Positions 16,575 through 55,312 of a DNA stretch of 64,000 nt are shown here, one piece after another (positions within the stretch are counted from its first letter, which is position 1; every line of letters begins with the position of its first letter). Source of the stretch: an uncultured Bacteroidota bacterium (GTDB lineage: Bacteria; Bacteroidota; Bacteroidia; JABEUT01); assembly GCA_903916255.1 (NCBI GenBank), contig CAIWVW010000121.1:1-64000 (forward strand), in the 5' to 3' direction. The notes beneath the pieces were generated by a model that was not told the origin of the DNA, did no database searches, and saw only the letters and a list, made by a program, of their open reading frames with translations. Both the position numbers and the translations under genes were made by a program.

Positions 16575-17528
16575 ATGAACCGAATAGACAGGCTAACGGC
16601 TATTTTAATCCAGTTACAATCTAAAAGGGTTGTAAAGGCGCAGGATATTGCCGAGCGGTTTAGTATCAGTTTGCGGACCGTTTACAGGGATATCAGAACA
16701 TTGGAAGAAGGCGGAATACCTATAATTGGTGAAGCAGGCGTAGGCTATTCTATTATGGATGGGTACAGGCTGCCTCCGGTAATGTTTACGTTGGAAGAAG
16801 CTACAGCCTTTTTAACCGCCGAAAAGCTGATTGAAAAACTTACAGATACCTCTACGGAAGAAAGCTATAAATCGGCCATGTATAAGGTGAAAGCAGTTTT
16901 GAAGGCCACTGAAAAGGAATATCTTGAAACAATAGATGAGCGCATAGAAGTGCTTAATAACCAGCATATACCTAAGCCTAAAAACCTACCCAACCCATTG
17001 CAGGTTATTTTGCGGAGCATCTCGGAAAAGAAGGTAGTGTGTATTGAATATACCTCCAATTCGGCGCAGGAAAAAACAATAAGGAATATCGAACCTGTTG
17101 GTGTGTTTTATGCCGGGCACTATTGGCATATCATAGCTTTTTGCCGCTTACGGAATGATTATCGTGATTTCCGAACTGACCGGATTTCCCATATAGCACC
17201 TATTAATGAGCGTTTTGATAAGGAGCATCCTTCTTTAAAGGTCTATTTAAAGCAATTATCGAAGGAGCAGAAACTTGAAACTGTGGTAATGCATGTGGAT
17301 AGAAAGATTTTGCGGCATTTTGGCGACCAGGCGTTTTATAATGGGTTTGTTTCCCAAAAGGAGACGAAAGATAAAAATGTAGTCGAAATGACCTTTTTGT
17401 CAGCTTCGCTGGAAGGTTTTGCCCGTTGGTATATGATGTTTGGCGACCATGCGGATATTATCAGTCCTGATAAACTGAAGGATATTATCCGGAAAATAGC
17501 GGGGGAAATCGAGAAAAAATTGAAATAG
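16575..17528 (+). CDS. YafY-family transcriptional regulator (HTH + WYL)
   Basis: 317 aa. The N-terminal winged helix is MNRIDRLTAILIQLQSKRVVKAQDIAERFSISLRTVYRDIRTLEEGGIPIIGE, the DeoR/HTH_11 type. The middle and C-terminus form a WYL domain: VCIEYTSNS...RNIEPVGVFYAGHYWHIIAFCRLRNDYRDFRTDRISHI, with HYWHIIAFC at the WYL position and the FRTDRI arginine motif. WYL domains sense nucleic-acid or nucleotide ligands. Small enzyme-like genes (DoxX, SnoaL-like, DinB) follow on the same strand and are plausible targets. Confidence 0.92.
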   Translation: MNRIDRLTAILIQLQSKRVVKAQDIAERFSISLRTVYRDIRTLEEGGIPIIGEAGVGYSIMDGYRLPPVMFTLEEATAFLTAEKLIEKLTDTSTEESYKSAMYKVKAVLKATEKEYLETIDERIEVLNNQHIPKPKNLPNPLQVILRSISEKKVVCIEYTSNSAQEKTIRNIEPVGVFYAGHYWHIIAFCRLRNDYRDFRTDRISHIAPINERFDKEHPSLKVYLKQLSKEQKLETVVMHVDRKILRHFGDQAFYNGFVSQKETKDKNVVEMTFLSASLEGFARWYMMFGDHADIISPDKLKDIIRKIAGEIEKKLK

Positions 17529-45298: not shown

Positions 45299-46147
45299 CT
45301 ATCTCTCAATCCCTCTCTCCTTCGATTTTTCATTTCCATTCTCTCTTAATCTCCTTAGTTCCTTCTCCCTCTCAATTGACTTATCGAGTTCCTTTAATTT
45401 TTCATCCGTGAATCCAAGCGTACTGAACCGGAACTTTCGGCCCTGATATAGTATTCCGGTAACCTTTCCGCCACGGGAATAACTGGAAAGCCCGGATTCA
45501 TTCAGTAGTTCAAAAAAGCTTTCTTTTGAGAAAACTTTTTTGTAGCATGTTTGGAGTGTTTCAATAATTTTTTCTTTTTCAGATTCCCTTCCGGTTCTAT
45601 GTTTGTGTTGGTACTCTTTTTCCGTGACAAGTGATTTATTTTTTCCTCCATGCTCTACTATTGAATGAGATAGTTCAGGATATTTTTCCACTTGGTAATT
45701 CTGAATATTCTTTTTTAATTTCTGCAATTCAGCTTTTGAAAGCCGCAGGGATTTGCCGTTGTGATATTCAATACCGGAAGCACAGACATGGACATGATAG
45801 TGTCCCTTGTCGAAGTGTGGAACGGCAATATACAGGCCGTTGGGATTTCGGAGCTTTATGTATTCCCGTGTCATTTCTTCCAACTTCTTAAGGGTAATAT
45901 CTTTTGCATCGTCCCGATGCCAGGAAAGAATTTCATGGGTGAGCAGTACGTTGTCTTTGCGCCGCTGTGTCCTATATGTTTCATTTTCCTTAAACTGCAT
46001 TTCCCATTCATTAATATTGTTGCCTTTTAAATTATAGGTAACGATAAAACTCTTACCCTCTCTATCAAACAGGCGGTCTTTATCGTGGAGCATATATTCA
46101 AGTAAATCATGAAAAGACTTCTTATGCGATTTAATTTTCAGTATCAT
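45299..46147 (-). CDS. Relaxase/mobilisation nuclease (MobA/VirD2-type)
   Basis: 282 aa from ATG 46147; the extra 48 residues in the ORF track fall within the upstream gene. The relaxase core is visible: N-terminal MILKIKSHKKSFHDLLEYMLHDKDR, motif II-like LLTHEILSWHRDD (residues 70-80) and the metal-binding HUH motif HFDKGHYHVHVCASG (111-125). It nicks oriT and pilots single-stranded DNA. A basic C-terminal region follows. It overlaps the MobC-like gene by 17 nt, so translation is coupled. No oriT was identified with confidence. Confidence 0.9.
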   Translation of the reverse strand: MILKIKSHKKSFHDLLEYMLHDKDRLFDREGKSFIVTYNLKGNNINEWEMQFKENETYRTQRRKDNVLLTHEILSWHRDDAKDITLKKLEEMTREYIKLRNPNGLYIAVPHFDKGHYHVHVCASGIEYHNGKSLRLSKAELQKLKKNIQNYQVEKYPELSHSIVEHGGKNKSLVTEKEYQHKHRTGRESEKEKIIETLQTCYKKVFSKESFFELLNESGLSSYSRGGKVTGILYQGRKFRFSTLGFTDEKLKELDKSIEREKELRRLRENGNEKSKERGIER

Positions 46148-46634
46148 AGTTACCAAATAGCGGCGGATTCCGTAACGCTTCGCTGAGTTCTTTTTGAAGG
46201 TCAGTGATGCGTTTTTCAATCGCATTGTATTTTTCTTGTTCCCGTTCAGAGGAATATTTTTCTTTAGGTGGAGCAATACGCTGTACTTCATTCAGGTATT
46301 GCGCCAGTAACTGTTCTATTCTTGCCACCTGAAACCTGTCCGGCACGATGTAGGTTTTATTAATATATGCCAGTGTAGCATTTCTAATAAAGGCCGTGAT
46401 GGACATGGAATGCCCATGAGCGGCACGAGCCATAGTATTGAATTCCCCATTTTTTCGGGAAAGGTTAATAATATATTCCGGCTTTACTTTTCGCTCTCTT
46501 TTTCTGTAAGCAAGCATATAGTTTTTGCGGTACTGGCGTTTTGCAGTTTTAATTTGCTCGTCAGTCCCATGCTCAAGAACACCGCAAGCTTCCAGATATT
46601 TCCATAATGGACTTCCCTTTGGTGTCTTACGCAT
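46131..46634 (-). CDS. MobC-like relaxosome accessory protein
   Basis: 167 aa. A basic N-terminus (KQYRKNYMLAYRKRERKVKPEYIINLSRKNGEF) is followed by AARAAHGHSMSITAFIRNATLAYIN, the ribbon-helix-helix-like segment of mobilisation accessory proteins. It is followed by helical, coiled-coil-prone sequence (REQEKYNAIEKRITDLQKELSEAL). It should bind oriT and help the relaxase. It overlaps both the relaxase (17 nt) and the coupling protein gene (8 nt). Confidence 0.8.
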   Translation of the reverse strand: MRKTPKGSPLWKYLEACGVLEHGTDEQIKTAKRQYRKNYMLAYRKRERKVKPEYIINLSRKNGEFNTMARAAHGHSMSITAFIRNATLAYINKTYIVPDRFQVARIEQLLAQYLNEVQRIAPPKEKYSSEREQEKYNAIEKRITDLQKELSEALRNPPLFGNYDTEN

Positions 46635-48069
46635 TGGCTTCAGGAAGAGTTAATAAAGGAACTACTTCAGGAGCGGTGCTAAGAATTGGTGGCTGTGGAA
46701 TCAAACTATATTTCATGAATCTATTCCTTTTGTAATACGGCACGACCTTTGCCAAAATGGGAGGATAGAAACCACAGATAAGAAGGGCCTGTGTTGCGGG
46801 CATGGTGCGAATTTCATCGCTGGTCATAAGAGGTCGAACTACGGTTTTTTTCTTTTTATCTTCATACTGAAACCGCCCCAAGGTAAATTCAAGTTCTTTC
46901 GCAGTCTCTAAAGATTGCCCGGTGAAATACATTTTTGCAAAGCAGTTTGATTTTATGGATTCAGCATCGTATCTTCCGTAATGTTCCGTAATCTGAGCAA
47001 AATCTTGGACTATCAGCATAATGCCAGACCGATGTTTGCGAACATTGGCAACGGCCAGTGGCAGGGTTGGCAAGTTGAGTGAACTTGCTTCGTCAATGAG
47101 CAGAAATATATCCCTTTCATTTGCACCGGGAATTCTTCCCAATGCAAATGAAAAGAATTGCTCAAAGAAAAGTGAAGTTATTACGCTATAGTACCGTTGG
47201 TCAGCTACTGAATTTTGTATGTACAAAGCAACTGGCCTATTTCTAAAATTCTGCATTGAAATACTATCACTTGCCGTTACACGAGCCACTGATTCATCCG
47301 TGAAAATTTGAAGGGCGGCTTTGCACGTTGCAATTATTCCGCTCACTACTTTCTCATCATAAGAGACGAAGGATTTGTACTCTGCATACAAAATTTCATT
47401 CCCGGCGCGGGAAAAAAGCCTATCAATTTTTTCAGGTGAACTTCCCAATTGAGTAAGTAATTGCCGGAGGTTATACAAGTTTTGGAAGGAAGGGTCTTGT
47501 TTTTTCAGAACGGTTATGAGTATTGCAAGAAGCCCGACAGCTTGTGTGGTCCAAAACGGGTCTTTACTTTTTGCACCAAGAGAATTTGCCACCAAGAGCG
47601 AGGCCACCTTCTGAATATCCGAAGAGCTATTGGCACGGGCAAGCGGATTAAATGAAGATGAAGCGGCAGGGTTTGCAAAATTCAGTACCTTAATATCATA
47701 GCCTCGCTGTTTCAAGAACCCGGCGCTTTTTGTATAGAGTTCACCGGAAGGGTCATGGATAATGAAACTGGAATGCATGGTATAGAGGGACGGCAACAAC
47801 ACTATGCTCGACTTCCCCGCCCCCGTTCCGCCAATAATCAGCGCATTTTGATAGGAGTTGCGAACAGATAAATTCTTTCTTCCGGTAAGACAAAAGCCGT
47901 CATTTCTTTTTGATAACAGCGTTCTTACCGATGCAAAACGAGCTGTGTATTCCTCTTTTCTTTTAGGTATACCTGTAATAAGTTCTGCAATGTTTTCCCA
48001 CGCAAACGTAAAAATACCTTCAATTATTTCAGCACAAAGTTTTAAAACTTGTTCTATGAAATCTATCAT
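46627..48069 (-). CDS. VirD4/TraG-type coupling protein
   Basis: 480 aa ATPase that delivers the relaxosome to a type IV secretion channel. Walker A ALIIGGTGAGKSSIVLLPSL (residues 77-96), DPSGELYTKSAGFLKQRGYDIKVLNFANP typical of TraG/VirD4, and Walker B DIFLLIDEASSLNLP near residue 322, then LIVQDFAQITEHYG. The N-terminus lacks the usual pair of membrane helices; only a weakly hydrophobic IIEGIFTFAWENIAELITGI is present. The membrane anchor may be supplied by the neighbouring membrane proteins. No other T4SS gene is present in the window. Confidence 0.92.
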   Translation of the reverse strand: MIDFIEQVLKLCAEIIEGIFTFAWENIAELITGIPKRKEEYTARFASVRTLLSKRNDGFCLTGRKNLSVRNSYQNALIIGGTGAGKSSIVLLPSLYTMHSSFIIHDPSGELYTKSAGFLKQRGYDIKVLNFANPAASSSFNPLARANSSSDIQKVASLLVANSLGAKSKDPFWTTQAVGLLAILITVLKKQDPSFQNLYNLRQLLTQLGSSPEKIDRLFSRAGNEILYAEYKSFVSYDEKVVSGIIATCKAALQIFTDESVARVTASDSISMQNFRNRPVALYIQNSVADQRYYSVITSLFFEQFFSFALGRIPGANERDIFLLIDEASSLNLPTLPLAVANVRKHRSGIMLIVQDFAQITEHYGRYDAESIKSNCFAKMYFTGQSLETAKELEFTLGRFQYEDKKKKTVVRPLMTSDEIRTMPATQALLICGFYPPILAKVVPYYKRNRFMKYSLIPQPPILSTAPEVVPLLTLPEANA

Positions 48070-50361: not shown

Positions 50362-50405
50362 GTAAGAATGAATAATTGCCGGGTACGGCAATTATTCATT
50401 CTTAC
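50362..50405. promoter_or_regulatory. Element palindrome, copy 1 (full two-sided form)
   Basis: Arms GTAAGAATGAATAATTGCCG and its exact reverse complement around GGTA: 20-bp perfect arms. This copy lies between divergent genes and carries the flank TTCA(T/C)TCTTA on both sides, facing each gene. The single-direction copies have the flank on one side only. Confidence 0.85.
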
Positions 50406-50465: not shown

Positions 50466-50738
50466 ATGAACTCACAACACAGAAGGTTAAAAAGCGATAA
50501 CAATAATTTTGTACCCGAAGAGGGGCAACGAGACCTTTTGTGTTGTAACAAGGAGTCGCTACGTTGCCCCTCTTTGGGCGTTGAAGAGGTTGAATTAACC
50601 GATGAAACAATACAAGCCATGAAAGAGTTAGGGGAAATATTAAGGGGAATTCATAATCGTCTTATTTCAGAGGGATACACAATACGTAAGGGTGTAATCA
50701 CAAAGCCAAATGCAAACACACAAAAACCAACTGAATAA
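50466..50738 (+). CDS. Small element protein with conserved ETIQAMKELGEILRGIHNRL core
   Basis: 90 aa. The C-terminal part VEEVELTDETIQAMKELGEILRGIHNRLISEGYTIRKG is nearly the same as in the 52896-53105 protein, although DNA identity is much lower, so the peptide is under selection. The helical core is amphipathic. The N-terminal 40 residues (PEEGQRDLLCCNKESLRCPSLGV) are encoded by a hairpin element that is absent from the paralogue. It overlaps the recombinase start by 29 nt. Function unknown. Confidence 0.75.
   Translation: MNSQHRRLKSDNNNFVPEEGQRDLLCCNKESLRCPSLGVEEVELTDETIQAMKELGEILRGIHNRLISEGYTIRKGVITKPNANTQKPTE
50514..50578. repeat. REP-like hairpin inserted in the 50466 gene
   Basis: AAGAGGGGCAACG (50518-50530) and CGTTGCCCCTCTT (50562-50574) are exact inverted arms. 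They extend by CCC/GGG with one G.T pair to 17 bp. The 31-nt loop holds CCTT...AAGG. It is in frame and missing from the paralogue. Confidence 0.85.
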
Positions 50739-52494
50739 TGTGTCGGAGAAAGAAATCTTAAAGGAAATTTCCAGTGGAAGATATAAAGATTTTTACCTTA
50801 TTTATAATCGCAAAAGCACCGATGAACCGGAAAACCAAAAAAATTCTATCAAATATCAGAAGTCCGAAAATGTTCGTTTTGCATACAAAGAACATTTGCC
50901 AATCGCTTCTGTTAGCTTGCCGGGCTTTTGTATTGACGGAATAATTTCGGAAAAGCATTCCGGATTCAAAGAAGATACAGCTTTATTATTCGGAAAAGAA
51001 GGGACTGTACAATACCGAATTGACCGACCAAAATTTTACCAACTCGTCCAATTTTTAAGCGAGGGATATTTTAAAGGTGTCATATTTCTTTGTTGGGATA
51101 GAGCGAGCCGCAATCGTGGTGATGATACGGTAATACGTAAATTGATGAAGCAACGCATTGATTTCCGTTTCACCCTGGCAAGTTATGATAAAACCAGTTC
51201 AGGCGCACTCCACATGGACATTGATGGAATGTTTGCCGAGCATCATTCCAGGGTAACAAGCGAAAAGGTTTCTTTGAATATTAAATATAAGCGTGACCAG
51301 GGGTTTTGCACCCACAAAGCCCCGGTTGGCTATCAGAATCTTGGGAATATGGAACATAAGCCATTTGACCCAGTAAGAGCCCCGGTAGTAAAAAAAATGT
51401 TTGAACTTTATGCTACTGGCAACTGGAGCCTTGCTGATATTGTCCGTTATGCAATAGAACAAGGATTTACTATGACACCAACACGCAGACAAAAAACGAA
51501 AGAAGAACGTCAGATGGAGGAGGAAGATGATATTACAATTGAACCCGAAGCCGTATGTCGTATTCCAACTTTCAATAATATTCACAAAATCTTAGTTAAT
51601 CGATTTTATACCGGAGAAGTAATTAATAGTAACGGCGAATTTATTCCAAGCAAAAGCCACGAGGCCCTTGTTTCAAAGAAGTTGTTTGAACAAGTGCAAG
51701 GTTTGCTAAACAAGAAAAACAAAAGTGTACATTATATCGAAAGATTAGATTATCCCATGCGTGGCTTAGTGCATTGCAAAGTTTGCGGTCGAGTTTACAC
51801 GCCTTATGAAAAAAAAGGAATTACATATTTCGGTAGCCGTTGTGCAAGAGATTGCCCCAACAAGAAAAAGAATATTAATATAAGATATCTTTCGGAGCAA
51901 ATCGATGGCATTTTAAACGCCCTCTATTTTACAGAAAAAGAACTTGCCCGACTTGCTGCTACTGAAAGTACGGATATAGCACTCTTTGAAATCAAAAGGC
52001 ATTCACAGCTTGAATTAAATGAGAACAAAAAGAAAAAGATACGGGAAGACCTTGCATATATTAATAGCAATAGGCTAACCTTGTTAAAAACAGGCGCATA
52101 TTCCCCCGAAACGATAGTAGCCGAAGAAAAAGACCTCAATGACAAATTGGCCGTCCTGCAAGATGAAGAAAGCACATCTGATGCATCAATGAGGGAAACA
52201 ATGAAAGAAATCATAAAACTTTCCGAACTCTTAGAAACCGTTTATTCATACTATGAAAACGCGAATCCCTATGAAAAGGAGATAATCATTAAAAAAATCT
52301 TTTCCGAACTCAAACTTGACGAAACCGGGTTGAAATATAAGGTTAAAAAAGAATTTGAACCCTTTGAAAAGCGTTTCATTGCCCCTTGGGTTCTCAAGGG
52401 TTGGCTTTCCGAAACAATACAATACGCCAACCTATTTAAATTAGTAATAAAAGACCTTGAAATATATATTCAAGATAAGGAATTGCATATATGA
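50710..52494 (+). CDS. Large serine recombinase
   Basis: 594 aa site-specific integrase of the resolvase/invertase superfamily. The catalytic Ser is in YNRKSTDEP (S36). The catalytic domain continues with ISEKHSGFKEDTALL-type sequence and FLCWDRASRNRGDDTVIRKLMKQ (conserved arginines). LASYDKTSSGALHMDIDGMFAEHHSRVTSEKVSLNIKYK is the long helix E. The recombinase domain contains APVGYQNLG and NIHKILVNRFYTGEV, and the zinc ribbon C-V-C...C-x-x-C (CKVCGRVYTPY...CARDCPNKK). A coiled coil and C-terminal PWVLKGWLSETIQYANLFKLVIKDLEIYI follow. The start may be ATG 50710 or GTG 50740. It drives integration of this element. Confidence 0.95.
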   Translation: MQTHKNQLNNVSEKEILKEISSGRYKDFYLIYNRKSTDEPENQKNSIKYQKSENVRFAYKEHLPIASVSLPGFCIDGIISEKHSGFKEDTALLFGKEGTVQYRIDRPKFYQLVQFLSEGYFKGVIFLCWDRASRNRGDDTVIRKLMKQRIDFRFTLASYDKTSSGALHMDIDGMFAEHHSRVTSEKVSLNIKYKRDQGFCTHKAPVGYQNLGNMEHKPFDPVRAPVVKKMFELYATGNWSLADIVRYAIEQGFTMTPTRRQKTKEERQMEEEDDITIEPEAVCRIPTFNNIHKILVNRFYTGEVINSNGEFIPSKSHEALVSKKLFEQVQGLLNKKNKSVHYIERLDYPMRGLVHCKVCGRVYTPYEKKGITYFGSRCARDCPNKKKNINIRYLSEQIDGILNALYFTEKELARLAATESTDIALFEIKRHSQLELNENKKKKIREDLAYINSNRLTLLKTGAYSPETIVAEEKDLNDKLAVLQDEESTSDASMRETMKEIIKLSELLETVYSYYENANPYEKEIIIKKIFSELKLDETGLKYKVKKEFEPFEKRFIAPWVLKGWLSETIQYANLFKLVIKDLEIYIQDKELHI

Positions 52495-52628: not shown

Positions 52629-52895
52629 ATGAAAACACCAATACCAAATACATTAAAAGAACGTCGAAAACAAGCTGGCTTACGCCAGATGGATGTGGCT
52701 AATACCTTAGGATTCCATAGCATAGATAGAATATGCAGATGGGAGAAAGGTAGAGCATATCCTCATGTGCGTAATCTCTTTAAGCTCTCTAAACTCTATG
52801 GAGTTAAACCACATGAGTTGTATGCAGAACTCTTGGAGAATCTTCAGGTAGATGAAAGTCAGTTGCCGGAGGAGAAAAGGATTAAGTTTACTTAA
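52629..52895 (+). CDS. XRE-family regulator of the mobile element
   Basis: 88 aa. TLKERRKQAGLRQMDVANTLGFHSIDRICRWEKGRAYPHVRNLFKLSKLYGVKPHELYAELLENLQ is a Cro/C1 helix-turn-helix with the xRWExGxAxP motif. It resembles the 56041 protein in the RW(E)xG and elyaELLE/elfHDFLE regions. It is convergent with the 52896 gene (abutting stops). It and the 56041 protein are the candidate binders of the repeated palindrome. Confidence 0.9.
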   Translation: MKTPIPNTLKERRKQAGLRQMDVANTLGFHSIDRICRWEKGRAYPHVRNLFKLSKLYGVKPHELYAELLENLQVDESQLPEEKRIKFT

Positions 52896-53105
52896 TTATT
52901 TTTTTCTCCTTTGATATGGTTTATATGGTTCTAAAGGAACATTTAATGTCCCATCAGGTTTATAAATTTTACCATCTTTGATTGTATAGCCTTCAGAGAT
53001 TAGTCTGTTGTGAATTCCTCGCAAGATTTCACCAAGCTCTTTCATGGCCTGGATTGTTTCCTCTGAAAGTTCCACTTCAGGAGTTTCATTGTTTTGGTTT
53101 TGCAT
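52896..53105 (-). CDS. Small element protein, paralogue of 50466
   Basis: 69 aa. VELSEETIQAMKELGEILRGIHNRLISEGYTIKDGKIYKPDG aligns with residues 44-80 of the 50466 protein with almost no change, on the opposite strand. The N-terminus is short (MQNQNNETPE) and lacks the hairpin-encoded insert, so this copy shows the ancestral form. The C-terminus is Pro/Lys-rich. Unknown function. Confidence 0.75.
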   Translation of the reverse strand: MQNQNNETPEVELSEETIQAMKELGEILRGIHNRLISEGYTIKDGKIYKPDGTLNVPLEPYKPYQRRKK

Positions 53106-53235: not shown

Positions 53236-54657
53236 TTAGTATTTTGTACCAACGTAGAATCCATGCCTACCACCACACCTGTACCCATTTTTATCTTTAT
53301 GAACTCCAAGACTTCCATTATTTTTGGTCTTTGTGAATTTTCTGCCACAATAGGAACATTGATAAGTATATTTTGGACCAAAATGCTTCTTGCTATATGA
53401 ACTACCTATTCTTACTCTAGATATAGGTGAGCGTGTAGGTCTATTGGGATCAAAAAGATACGGATTTTCGGGTCTTTCACCTGCTTTAGATAATTCGATT
53501 GGGTATCGTGGGCTAAACTTTTCTTCGGTATTTTCAATAGATTGGAAATTCTCAGGAACAAAGCACCTGATGCCTGGCATACTTCTTCCTCCAACAGCAT
53601 TATAAACATATAAATATTCGCGCTCTGCTCCATCTTTCCGCTTAAGATATTTAAGGGAGTATGGTTCTATTATTCTCTCTTGATGATTGTATATTATCTT
53701 AAGAAGTGTTTGCTCACGACCTGCTTTCATTATTTTAACCCTTATGTCCGCATCAAAGTATGCAAATTGATAATAACTATTGTCTGGGTAGATTGAAAAA
53801 AGACCTTCTAAATCAGCTAAGAAAAAGGTAATTGCTTCTTCAACTCCAAAAATAGTCTGCTTTGCACAAATGATTGTCTTTACCCAAAATTCTTTAAAGA
53901 AATCAAAAGGTGTTTTGTGCAAAATCTCTTTAAGAACATGAGGGTTTCTTCCAAAGATGGTTTTTTGAACAAAAGTTTCCACAACTTCTTCCTTATTTAA
54001 ATTACCACCCAATAATTTTATTGAATATACATAATCAAATAGGTCGGGAGCATGTTGCCTTTGCAAGAGACATTTTAGTTTCGTTGCAATGATCTCTTCA
54101 AGTTTCATACATTGAATTTCGCAGGATACCTCAGAAGCATCAGAATATGGATGTATTAATTTTACCTTTTGAAGCGAAAGCAGTATCCTATCAAATCTTG
54201 TAATGTCCATTGAAATTTTTATCTTCAGATGATCTGGTTTTCCATAGAAGTCTTTGAAGTAAATTTTTGCTTCATAAACCTTTAGATCAGGTATTGGAGC
54301 TTCACTAGCAAGGAATTTTTCTTCTACTTTGTTATCCTCCTTAACAAAAGCTACCCCGGCCTTTTCTTGGATAAAATCACAAACTTTATTAATTTCTTCC
54401 AGTAAAATAGATTGCTCAATATCTCCAGGAATCCCAAAATCTAAATCGGATGAAAACCGAGTATTTTCAAAATACCCCTTTCTTAAAGCGTTACCGCCCT
54501 TTAAAAAAATGGAGTCCTTTAATTCACTAACAGTAAAGATTCCAGAAATAAACCAACCGAAAACGTAATCTCTTTCCACGTTGGCTATATGGATTTCAAA
54601 TTCCTTTGATTTGGCTTCTATTTCTTCACGAGTAATCACAAAGGCAATTATACTCAT
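53236..54657 (-). CDS. AbiEii-like nucleotidyltransferase fused to a WYL-like domain and zinc finger
   Basis: 473 aa. Residues 50-75 hold the AbiEii/AbiGii nucleotidyltransferase signature: IFLKGGNALRKGYF and RFSSDLDFG (D71 and D73 as metal ligands), with D151 in SMDITRFD as candidate third acid. KLEEIIATKLKCLLQRQHAPDLFDYV matches the helical motif of the family. Residues about 305-390 look like a WYL domain: TLLKIIYNHQERIIEPYSLK, EREYLYVYNA at the WYL position, and IRCFVPENFQSIENTEEKF like the usual FRLDRI block. The C-terminus is a CSYCGRKF...H...C zinc finger. No AbiEi antitoxin is adjacent. Likely a toxin or anti-phage protein; self-control by the WYL part is inferred. Confidence 0.8.
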   Translation of the reverse strand: MSIIAFVITREEIEAKSKEFEIHIANVERDYVFGWFISGIFTVSELKDSIFLKGGNALRKGYFENTRFSSDLDFGIPGDIEQSILLEEINKVCDFIQEKAGVAFVKEDNKVEEKFLASEAPIPDLKVYEAKIYFKDFYGKPDHLKIKISMDITRFDRILLSLQKVKLIHPYSDASEVSCEIQCMKLEEIIATKLKCLLQRQHAPDLFDYVYSIKLLGGNLNKEEVVETFVQKTIFGRNPHVLKEILHKTPFDFFKEFWVKTIICAKQTIFGVEEAITFFLADLEGLFSIYPDNSYYQFAYFDADIRVKIMKAGREQTLLKIIYNHQERIIEPYSLKYLKRKDGAEREYLYVYNAVGGRSMPGIRCFVPENFQSIENTEEKFSPRYPIELSKAGERPENPYLFDPNRPTRSPISRVRIGSSYSKKHFGPKYTYQCSYCGRKFTKTKNNGSLGVHKDKNGYRCGGRHGFYVGTKY

Positions 54658-54740
54658 TTATCGTGAGTTCGGAAATCTTTATTTGGGTCTTTACATTCTA
54701 TAAATAATATTGTCCCAGAAGCCTTATGGAATATAGGAAA

Positions 54741-54760: not shown

Positions 54761-54847
54761 TGGGTACTCAAGGGTTGGCTTTCCGAACTCCTTACATATT
54801 CATCTTATATAAAGAATGGTATTAAAGAACTGGAAATTTATCAATAA
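54761..54847 (+). pseudogene. C-terminal stub of a second serine recombinase
   Basis: In frame, 28 codons plus stop: WVLKGWLSELLTYSSYIKNGIKELEIYQ. This matches the end of the 50710 recombinase (WVLKGWLSETIQYANLFKLVIKDLEIYI). No start or upstream homology is left; the breakpoint lies about 54757. It marks an older recombinase copy whose 5' part was replaced, probably by the AbiEii cassette. Confidence 0.8.
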
Positions 54848-54910: not shown

Positions 54911-55312
54911 ATGAAACCTGAAGAGAAAAACTATGATGATTGGAATATTGTTAAAAAACAAACCGATAGCATTAAAGCGGAAATTAAATTACGTGCTGGA
55001 GAAATTCGTTGGTGTAGATTTGGAATCAATATCGGTAATGAAATAATTGGGAAAGACAGTACTTTCCATAGACCTGTATTGATTTTAAAGAAATTTTCTG
55101 GTGATGTATTTTTTGGTTTACCGTTAACTACAAAATCACATAAGGGAGATTGGTATTATCAAATCATTCATAGCGATACAACCCAAACAATTATTTTAAA
55201 TCAGGGAAGAATTTTAGATAGAAAAAGACTTGAAGAAAAAATGTTTGAGGTGTCAGAAACTGAATTGGAAAAAATAAAGAAAGCGTACTGTACTCTAATA
55301 AGTAAGGCTTAA
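54911..55312 (+). CDS. PemK/MazF-like toxin
   Basis: 133 aa. RAGEIRWCRFGINIGNEIIGKDSTFHRPVLILKKFSGDVFFGLPLTTKSHKGDWYYQI is the SH3-like barrel of MazF/PemK endoribonucleases (GEI start, RPVLIL strand, LPLTT). IILNQGRILDRKRLEEKMFEVSETELEKIKKA is the C-terminal helix. The N-terminal 25 residues are helical and charged. No clear antitoxin precedes or follows (the 5' region is the recombinase stub; the 3' neighbour is on the other strand), so it is either solitary or its antitoxin has been lost. Confidence 0.85.
   Translation: MKPEEKNYDDWNIVKKQTDSIKAEIKLRAGEIRWCRFGINIGNEIIGKDSTFHRPVLILKKFSGDVFFGLPLTTKSHKGDWYYQIIHSDTTQTIILNQGRILDRKRLEEKMFEVSETELEKIKKAYCTLISKA

Follow-up and report, generated by a model that had tools for sequence, protein, structure and literature searches.

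An AbiEii-type nucleotidyltransferase with a WYL barrel and a C-terminal finger from a branch without AbiEi

In the window, the whole stretch of 64,000 nucleotides from an uncultured Bacteroidota bacterium that was analysed here, one gene joins an AbiEii/DUF1814 nucleotidyltransferase (NTase) domain to a WYL barrel and a C2HC finger, and the encoded protein belongs to a branch of such proteins whose loci are without AbiEi. At slightly less than even odds (about 45%), we read it as an NTase toxin of the AbiEii/MenT superfamily that is self-contained, needs no AbiEi and has a regulatory arm that binds nucleic acid; a mobilizable element would carry it as cargo of the defence type. How are DUF1814 toxins kept silent and switched on? 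Most work on this question needs an AbiEi or MenA partner. A cross-phylum AbiEi-less branch with a sensor-like arm, together with a related set that has both arm and AbiEi, offers a natural experiment that parts the arm from the antitoxin, and the branch itself is a candidate one-gene defence effector.

Domains of the protein

The gene is an open reading frame of 473 aa with an ATG start and free of internal stops (Table 1). Residues 39–238 match Pfam AbiEii (E 1.9e-22), the only Pfam family above cut-off in the protein, and the PADLOC AbiEii model matches with E 3e-46, in agreement with the initial annotation of an AbiEii NTase at this place. The NTase motifs comprise K53-G54-G55, R67-F-S69-S-D71-L-D73, D151, E188/K193/R200 and D205/D208. 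Across 31 relatives G54, G55, R67, S69, D71, D73, E188, D205 and D208 are invariant, while D151, K193 and R200 are nearly so; mutating the matching residues of AbiEii abolishes its toxicity (PMC3985639). The domain thus has the DUF1814 NTase with motifs I–IV of the AbiE type IV toxin-antitoxin (TA) system (AbiEii, DUF1814/COG2253; PMC3985639), with which it also shares its fold and a location on a mobile element. By Foldseek and motif alignment it likewise has both the fold and the catalytic residues of MenT-type tRNA NTases. Its best fold matches are MenT4 (Rv2826c; 6y56) and MenT3/TglT (Rv1045; 6j7r), the top two with an AlphaFold model from ten sequences (E 6e-8 each), and S69 aligns with MenT3 S78, a mapping inferred from the R-x-S-x-D-x-D pattern. 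S78 is an auto-phosphorylated serine that acts as a phospho-switch (PMC11375011). Unlike the protein described here, the MenT toxins have neither WYL domain nor finger and are controlled by MenA partners.

Table 1. Position of the NTase gene, its parts and the neighbouring features in the window
Feature	Position	Strand	Basis or remark
Whole gene: AbiEii/DUF1814 NTase + WYL + C2HC finger	53236..54657	-	473 aa
NTase domain, residues 8-262	53872..54636	-	Pfam AbiEii, Foldseek MenT4/TglT, motif conservation in 31 relatives
NTase motifs I-II, residues 53-74 (KGGNALRKGYFENTRFSSDLDF)	54436..54501	-	motif conservation
Helical linker, residues 263-298	53764..53871	-	AF2 helix 272-289
WYL domain, residues 299-385	53503..53763	-	AF2 models, Foldseek, homologues above Pfam cut-off
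Disordered linker, residues 392-425	53383..53484	-	pLDDT below 50
C2HC finger, residues 428-473 (C434, C437, H453, C461)	53239..53376	-	ligand pattern; pLDDT 78-88 for most
Large serine recombinase of mobile element	50710..52494	+	Pfam Recombinase + Resolvase
MobA/VirD2-type relaxase of element	45299..46291	-	Pfam Relaxase E 3e-14
Type IV coupling protein of element	46627..48069	-	Pfam T4SS-DNA_transf E 3e-59
MazF/PemK-like toxin gene, divergent neighbour	54911..55312	+	Pfam PemK_toxin E 2.4e-8
Second serine recombinase, 3'-end remnant, upstream of NTase gene	54761..54841	+	26/27 nt

A WYL-like region behind the NTase had been proposed from the sequence, with a structure prediction of residues 305–390 as the check. 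AlphaFold was run twice, first with four sequences and later with ten, and already the four-sequence model was confident, with a helix and five strands at 303–380; the barrel consists of helix 303–315 and five strands within 317–380. Foldseek matched this first model to DriD, PafBC, CapW and BrxR, the BrxR chains with an rmsd of 2.0–3.2 Å across 85–88 columns. With the ten-sequence model (pLDDT 79, pTM 0.73) DriD was the top WYL protein, behind MenT4 and TglT. Probabilities for the WYL proteins were 0.97–1.00 at E-values of only about 1e-3, and whole-chain TM-scores are low since each match spans one domain. The Pfam WYL model (PF13280) leaves the 473-aa protein itself unscored and lies above cut-off at the aligned place in five full-length homologues (L040–L042, L079 and L080) as well as in L087. 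L040–L042, from Rhizobium and Thiodictyon plasmids, align with residues ~309–381 here (best E 7.3e-9); L079 and L080 are loci of a viral collection. HMMs built from the arm pick up HTH-WYL-WCX regulators; the one from six AbiEi-less members, for instance, finds the open reading frame L058 (E 3e-5), by Pfam such a regulator (WYL 2e-23). As modelled, then, residues ~301–385 form a WYL barrel, so that the proposal survives its own check; a chance look-alike is ruled out by the two models, Foldseek and the Pfam matches in homologues. A single-sequence hhalign comparison with the genome's own WYL regulator was colinear and fell short of significance. The sole PF13280 match in the assembly lies at 16998–17198, in a 317-aa HTH-WYL-type regulator adjoining a LuxE-like gene.

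The C-terminal finger noticed in the initial annotation (CxxC…H…C) is present and conserved. Its pattern, C434-x2-C437-x15-H453-x7-C461, recurs in six of the seven AbiEi-less members, the exception being the Streptomyces protein (L039) as annotated, and in all six AbiEi-paired finger members, one of which has 16 residues before the histidine. It occurs in none of the seven WYL-only and none of the 11 NTase-only relatives, and within the plasmid collection it is confined to these proteins. Pfam finger models score only below threshold in the 473-aa protein; with its four conserved metal ligands, the finger would be expected to bind zinc.

How does this arrangement relate to known ones? DriD, PafBC, CapW and BrxR share the WYL barrel but fuse it to HTH and WCX domains, whereas here it is fused to an enzyme without either. 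The fusion of AbiEii with WYL is itself a recurrent subtype that is already known, which contradicts the earlier statement that AbiEii is normally single-domain. The same DUF1814-WYL combination is listed among WYL fusions by Makarova et al. 2014 (PMC4012209), who predict that WYL-enzyme fusions, those with DUF1814 included, are ligand sensors; in the part of that paper available to us, the finger, the AbiEi status and the branch are undescribed. Our literature search, itself incomplete, returned no other paper on AbiEii/DUF1814 with WYL. The AbiEi-paired version of the subtype, covered by the PADLOC model PDLC02317 (396 positions), has the same NTase-WYL order and occurs in Rhizobium, Thiodictyon and viral-collection contigs; the model spans NTase and WYL of L041, L012 and L006. 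Some of these proteins carry the same C2HC finger, but they have AbiEi upstream and are only about 26% identical, and their finger-bearing members keep the ssDNA-type arginines discussed below. We found no description of a branch without AbiEi, of the finger in it or of its loss of these arginines, and these look new.

The AbiEi-less branch and its genomic company

AbiEi was reported missing when the locus was first annotated, and the wider search agrees: PF13338 has no match in the whole assembly (97% complete, 149 contigs), and an AbiEi HMM has no match close to the NTase gene, its two weak matches in the window (E 0.8 and 6.9) lying at least 9.6 kb away. The adjacent AbiEi (COG5340) of the AbiE type IV TA system is therefore lacking here, and the locus differs from that system also by its additional WYL barrel and finger. 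Homologues with the same fusion exist both with and without AbiEi. In a tree of the NTase domain alone, the AbiEi-less proteins make up one side of a branch with support 100/100 and length 1.54; AbiEi HMM matches adjoin all 24 other tree members, L008 and L043 included, and none of these seven, absence being least certain for L004, which has only 537 bases of upstream sequence. Thirteen WYL-bearing relatives are AbiEi-linked with AbiEi upstream (complete in ten; in L047, L087 and L098 truncated where the retrieved sequence ends), and six of them have the same finger. The lack of AbiEi is thus supported as a property of the whole branch, beyond the window locus, on a small sample of seven loci and a non-random comparison set. 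Four loci of the window's phylum (L019, L021, L022 and L024) have WYL in a separate or frameshifted open reading frame after AbiEii, as pseudogenes or split versions.

The seven members come from four named phyla and the window's genome, three relatives having been found by a search of genome contigs and three more on plasmids, and they share 40–71% identity with the window protein. The branch often adjoins other defence genes. In a Portnoybacteria MAG (L005) the gene is embedded in a type I restriction operon of the order hsdM/S-NTase-hsdR, with ends overlapping or nearly abutting; the Paenibacillus rigui member adjoins DarT1-NADAR and the Streptomyces member a SMODS nucleotidyltransferase (synthase), while the Sphingomonas and Sinorhizobium members lie on plasmids without a recognised defence neighbour. 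After the AbiEi-less gene of Sinorhizobium (L038, 6419–9429) come a weak match to DUF3800, another nucleotidyltransferase and a hypothetical gene. No neighbouring open reading frame within 1.5 kb is common to the AbiEi-less loci.

Searched with the arm alignment, about 396 genomes of the window's phylum yielded no further AbiEi-less member with a finger; there was likewise none besides P. rigui in 399 genomes of the Paenibacillus phylum, and none besides L005 in 380 genomes of the Portnoybacteria phylum, where degraded fragments exist. On phages and viral contigs this protein as query found no close relatives, and the alignment as query only AbiEi-paired or short ones.

Possible roles of the C-terminal arm

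What could the arm sense? The PafB substitutions R211A/R214A cause loss of ssDNA binding (PMC11804915). At these two positions the window protein has V367 and N370, and the arginines are lost in all seven AbiEi-less members and kept in all six finger-bearing paired proteins. Over the PafB positions R208/F210/R211/R214, the latter read R/Y/R/R throughout, the AbiEi-less set reads (R or K)/(F or W)/(V, M, F or L)/(N, D or K), and WYL-only members vary. R328 and Y348, the equivalents of PafB R181 and Y196, are kept. The register between both branches is safe, as the distance from R-x-[FY] to F-x-P is equal and gap-free; that to PafB is inferred from the conserved R-x-F-R-x-D-R pattern, and the WYL residues of P0001, L004 and L005 were read by eye. 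With the two arginines lost, ssDNA sensing in the manner of PafBC or DriD is therefore unlikely for the AbiEi-less arm, judging from the alignment, and its ligand is probably something other than ssDNA bound in this way.

In the mechanism we favour, the N-terminal NTase would move a nucleotide onto an RNA, by analogy with MenT probably a tRNA, and so stop translation. The WYL barrel, flexible linker and finger would bind a nucleic acid or a nucleotide-like ligand, and this arm may keep or release NTase activity in cis, presumably on an infection-related trigger, making AbiEi unneeded. We prefer this one-gene toxin because the NTase motifs are intact in 7/7 members and the best fold match is MenT4/TglT, because WYL and finger are conserved in a 100/100 branch without AbiEi, and because no shared alternative partner lies within 1.5 kb of genes that are spread over several phyla in defence settings. 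Against it, an antitoxin might be encoded elsewhere in the genome, or the protein might lack toxicity. A bolder version, which we think possible but rather doubtful, is a one-protein abortive-infection system across several phyla, in which the WYL-finger arm silences the NTase and detects an infection-derived ligand that is not plain ssDNA, so that AbiEi would be dispensable.

The initial annotation derived possible cis control by a nucleic-acid-sensing WYL part from the missing AbiEi. This is unestablished: 13 AbiEi-linked relatives share the WYL domain, and the arginines are replaced in the branch. The most serious objection to a pure cis-antitoxin is that the same arm occurs in AbiEi-paired relatives; the arm must hence be more than a built-in antitoxin, and WYL as a simple replacement of AbiEi is ruled out as a general rule.

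The main rival to a regulatory arm is that WYL and finger hold the substrate, a tRNA or other RNA, and that control comes from expression, auto-phosphorylation of S69 or host factors. An arm kept with and without AbiEi, the Hfq/Sm-like nature of WYL (PMC9122588) and the loss of the ssDNA-sensing arginines in the AbiEi-less branch would all suit substrate targeting, as the counterpart of S69 in MenT3 would suit phospho-control; yet characterised AbiEii and MenT toxins work with no arm of this kind, and the finger is missing from seven WYL members, and we consider this reading unlikely, if a serious one. The mobile-element setting with its truncated recombinase copy upstream, and the absence of AbiEi itself, could also point to a remnant, decayed or domesticated, from which both antitoxin and toxicity have gone, but open frames and intact motifs in 7/7 members at 40–71% identity across phyla argue for selection and make this improbable. 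Silencing by neighbouring defence machinery, such as restriction subunits, with the toxin firing once the machinery is attacked, would fit the operon in L005 and has a precedent in PrrC, which is silenced by its type I enzyme (PMC2610378). Only one of seven members has such a setting, however, and no restriction system directly adjoins the gene in the window, so that we regard this as very improbable. The regulatory-arm toxin remains our preferred reading.

The element around the gene

The mobile-element, defence-like setting and the MazF-like neighbour of the earlier description stand (Table 1). No sign ties the MazF-like gene to the NTase in function: it is divergent, and neighbours are unshared among AbiEi-less loci. 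The recombinase remnant upstream of the NTase gene matches the 3' part of the complete recombinase gene in 26/27 nt, with weaker similarity on to the end, and the NTase segment is therefore flanked by one intact and one truncated recombinase copy. A search for an empty site in the genus gave repeats on one flank and no useful match on the other, leaving the ends of the element unset.

Two local candidates for an antitoxin were considered. A 69-aa downstream open reading frame is unlikely to be one, as a paralogue adjoins the recombinase without a toxin. An RNA antitoxin in the leader was likewise set aside, with a fold z of -2.2 and no Rfam match over the gathering score; by eye, other loci show no similar leader. 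An exact 11-nt inverted repeat (GAGTTCGGAAA, at 54665–54675 and 54780–54790) brackets the leader of the NTase gene.

Paralogous small open reading frames with a common ETIQAMKELGEILRGIHNRLISEGYTI lie at 52896–53105 and 50466–50738, both adjoining the recombinase. Between element genes, the palindrome TTGCCGnnnnCGGCAA occurs at 50376, 52540, 54855, 55975, 56825 and 58376, in four exact copies and two with one mismatch; allowing up to two mismatches, the window holds 15 matches against 1.8 expected. The palindrome may be an operator bound by the XRE regulators at 52629 and 55933.
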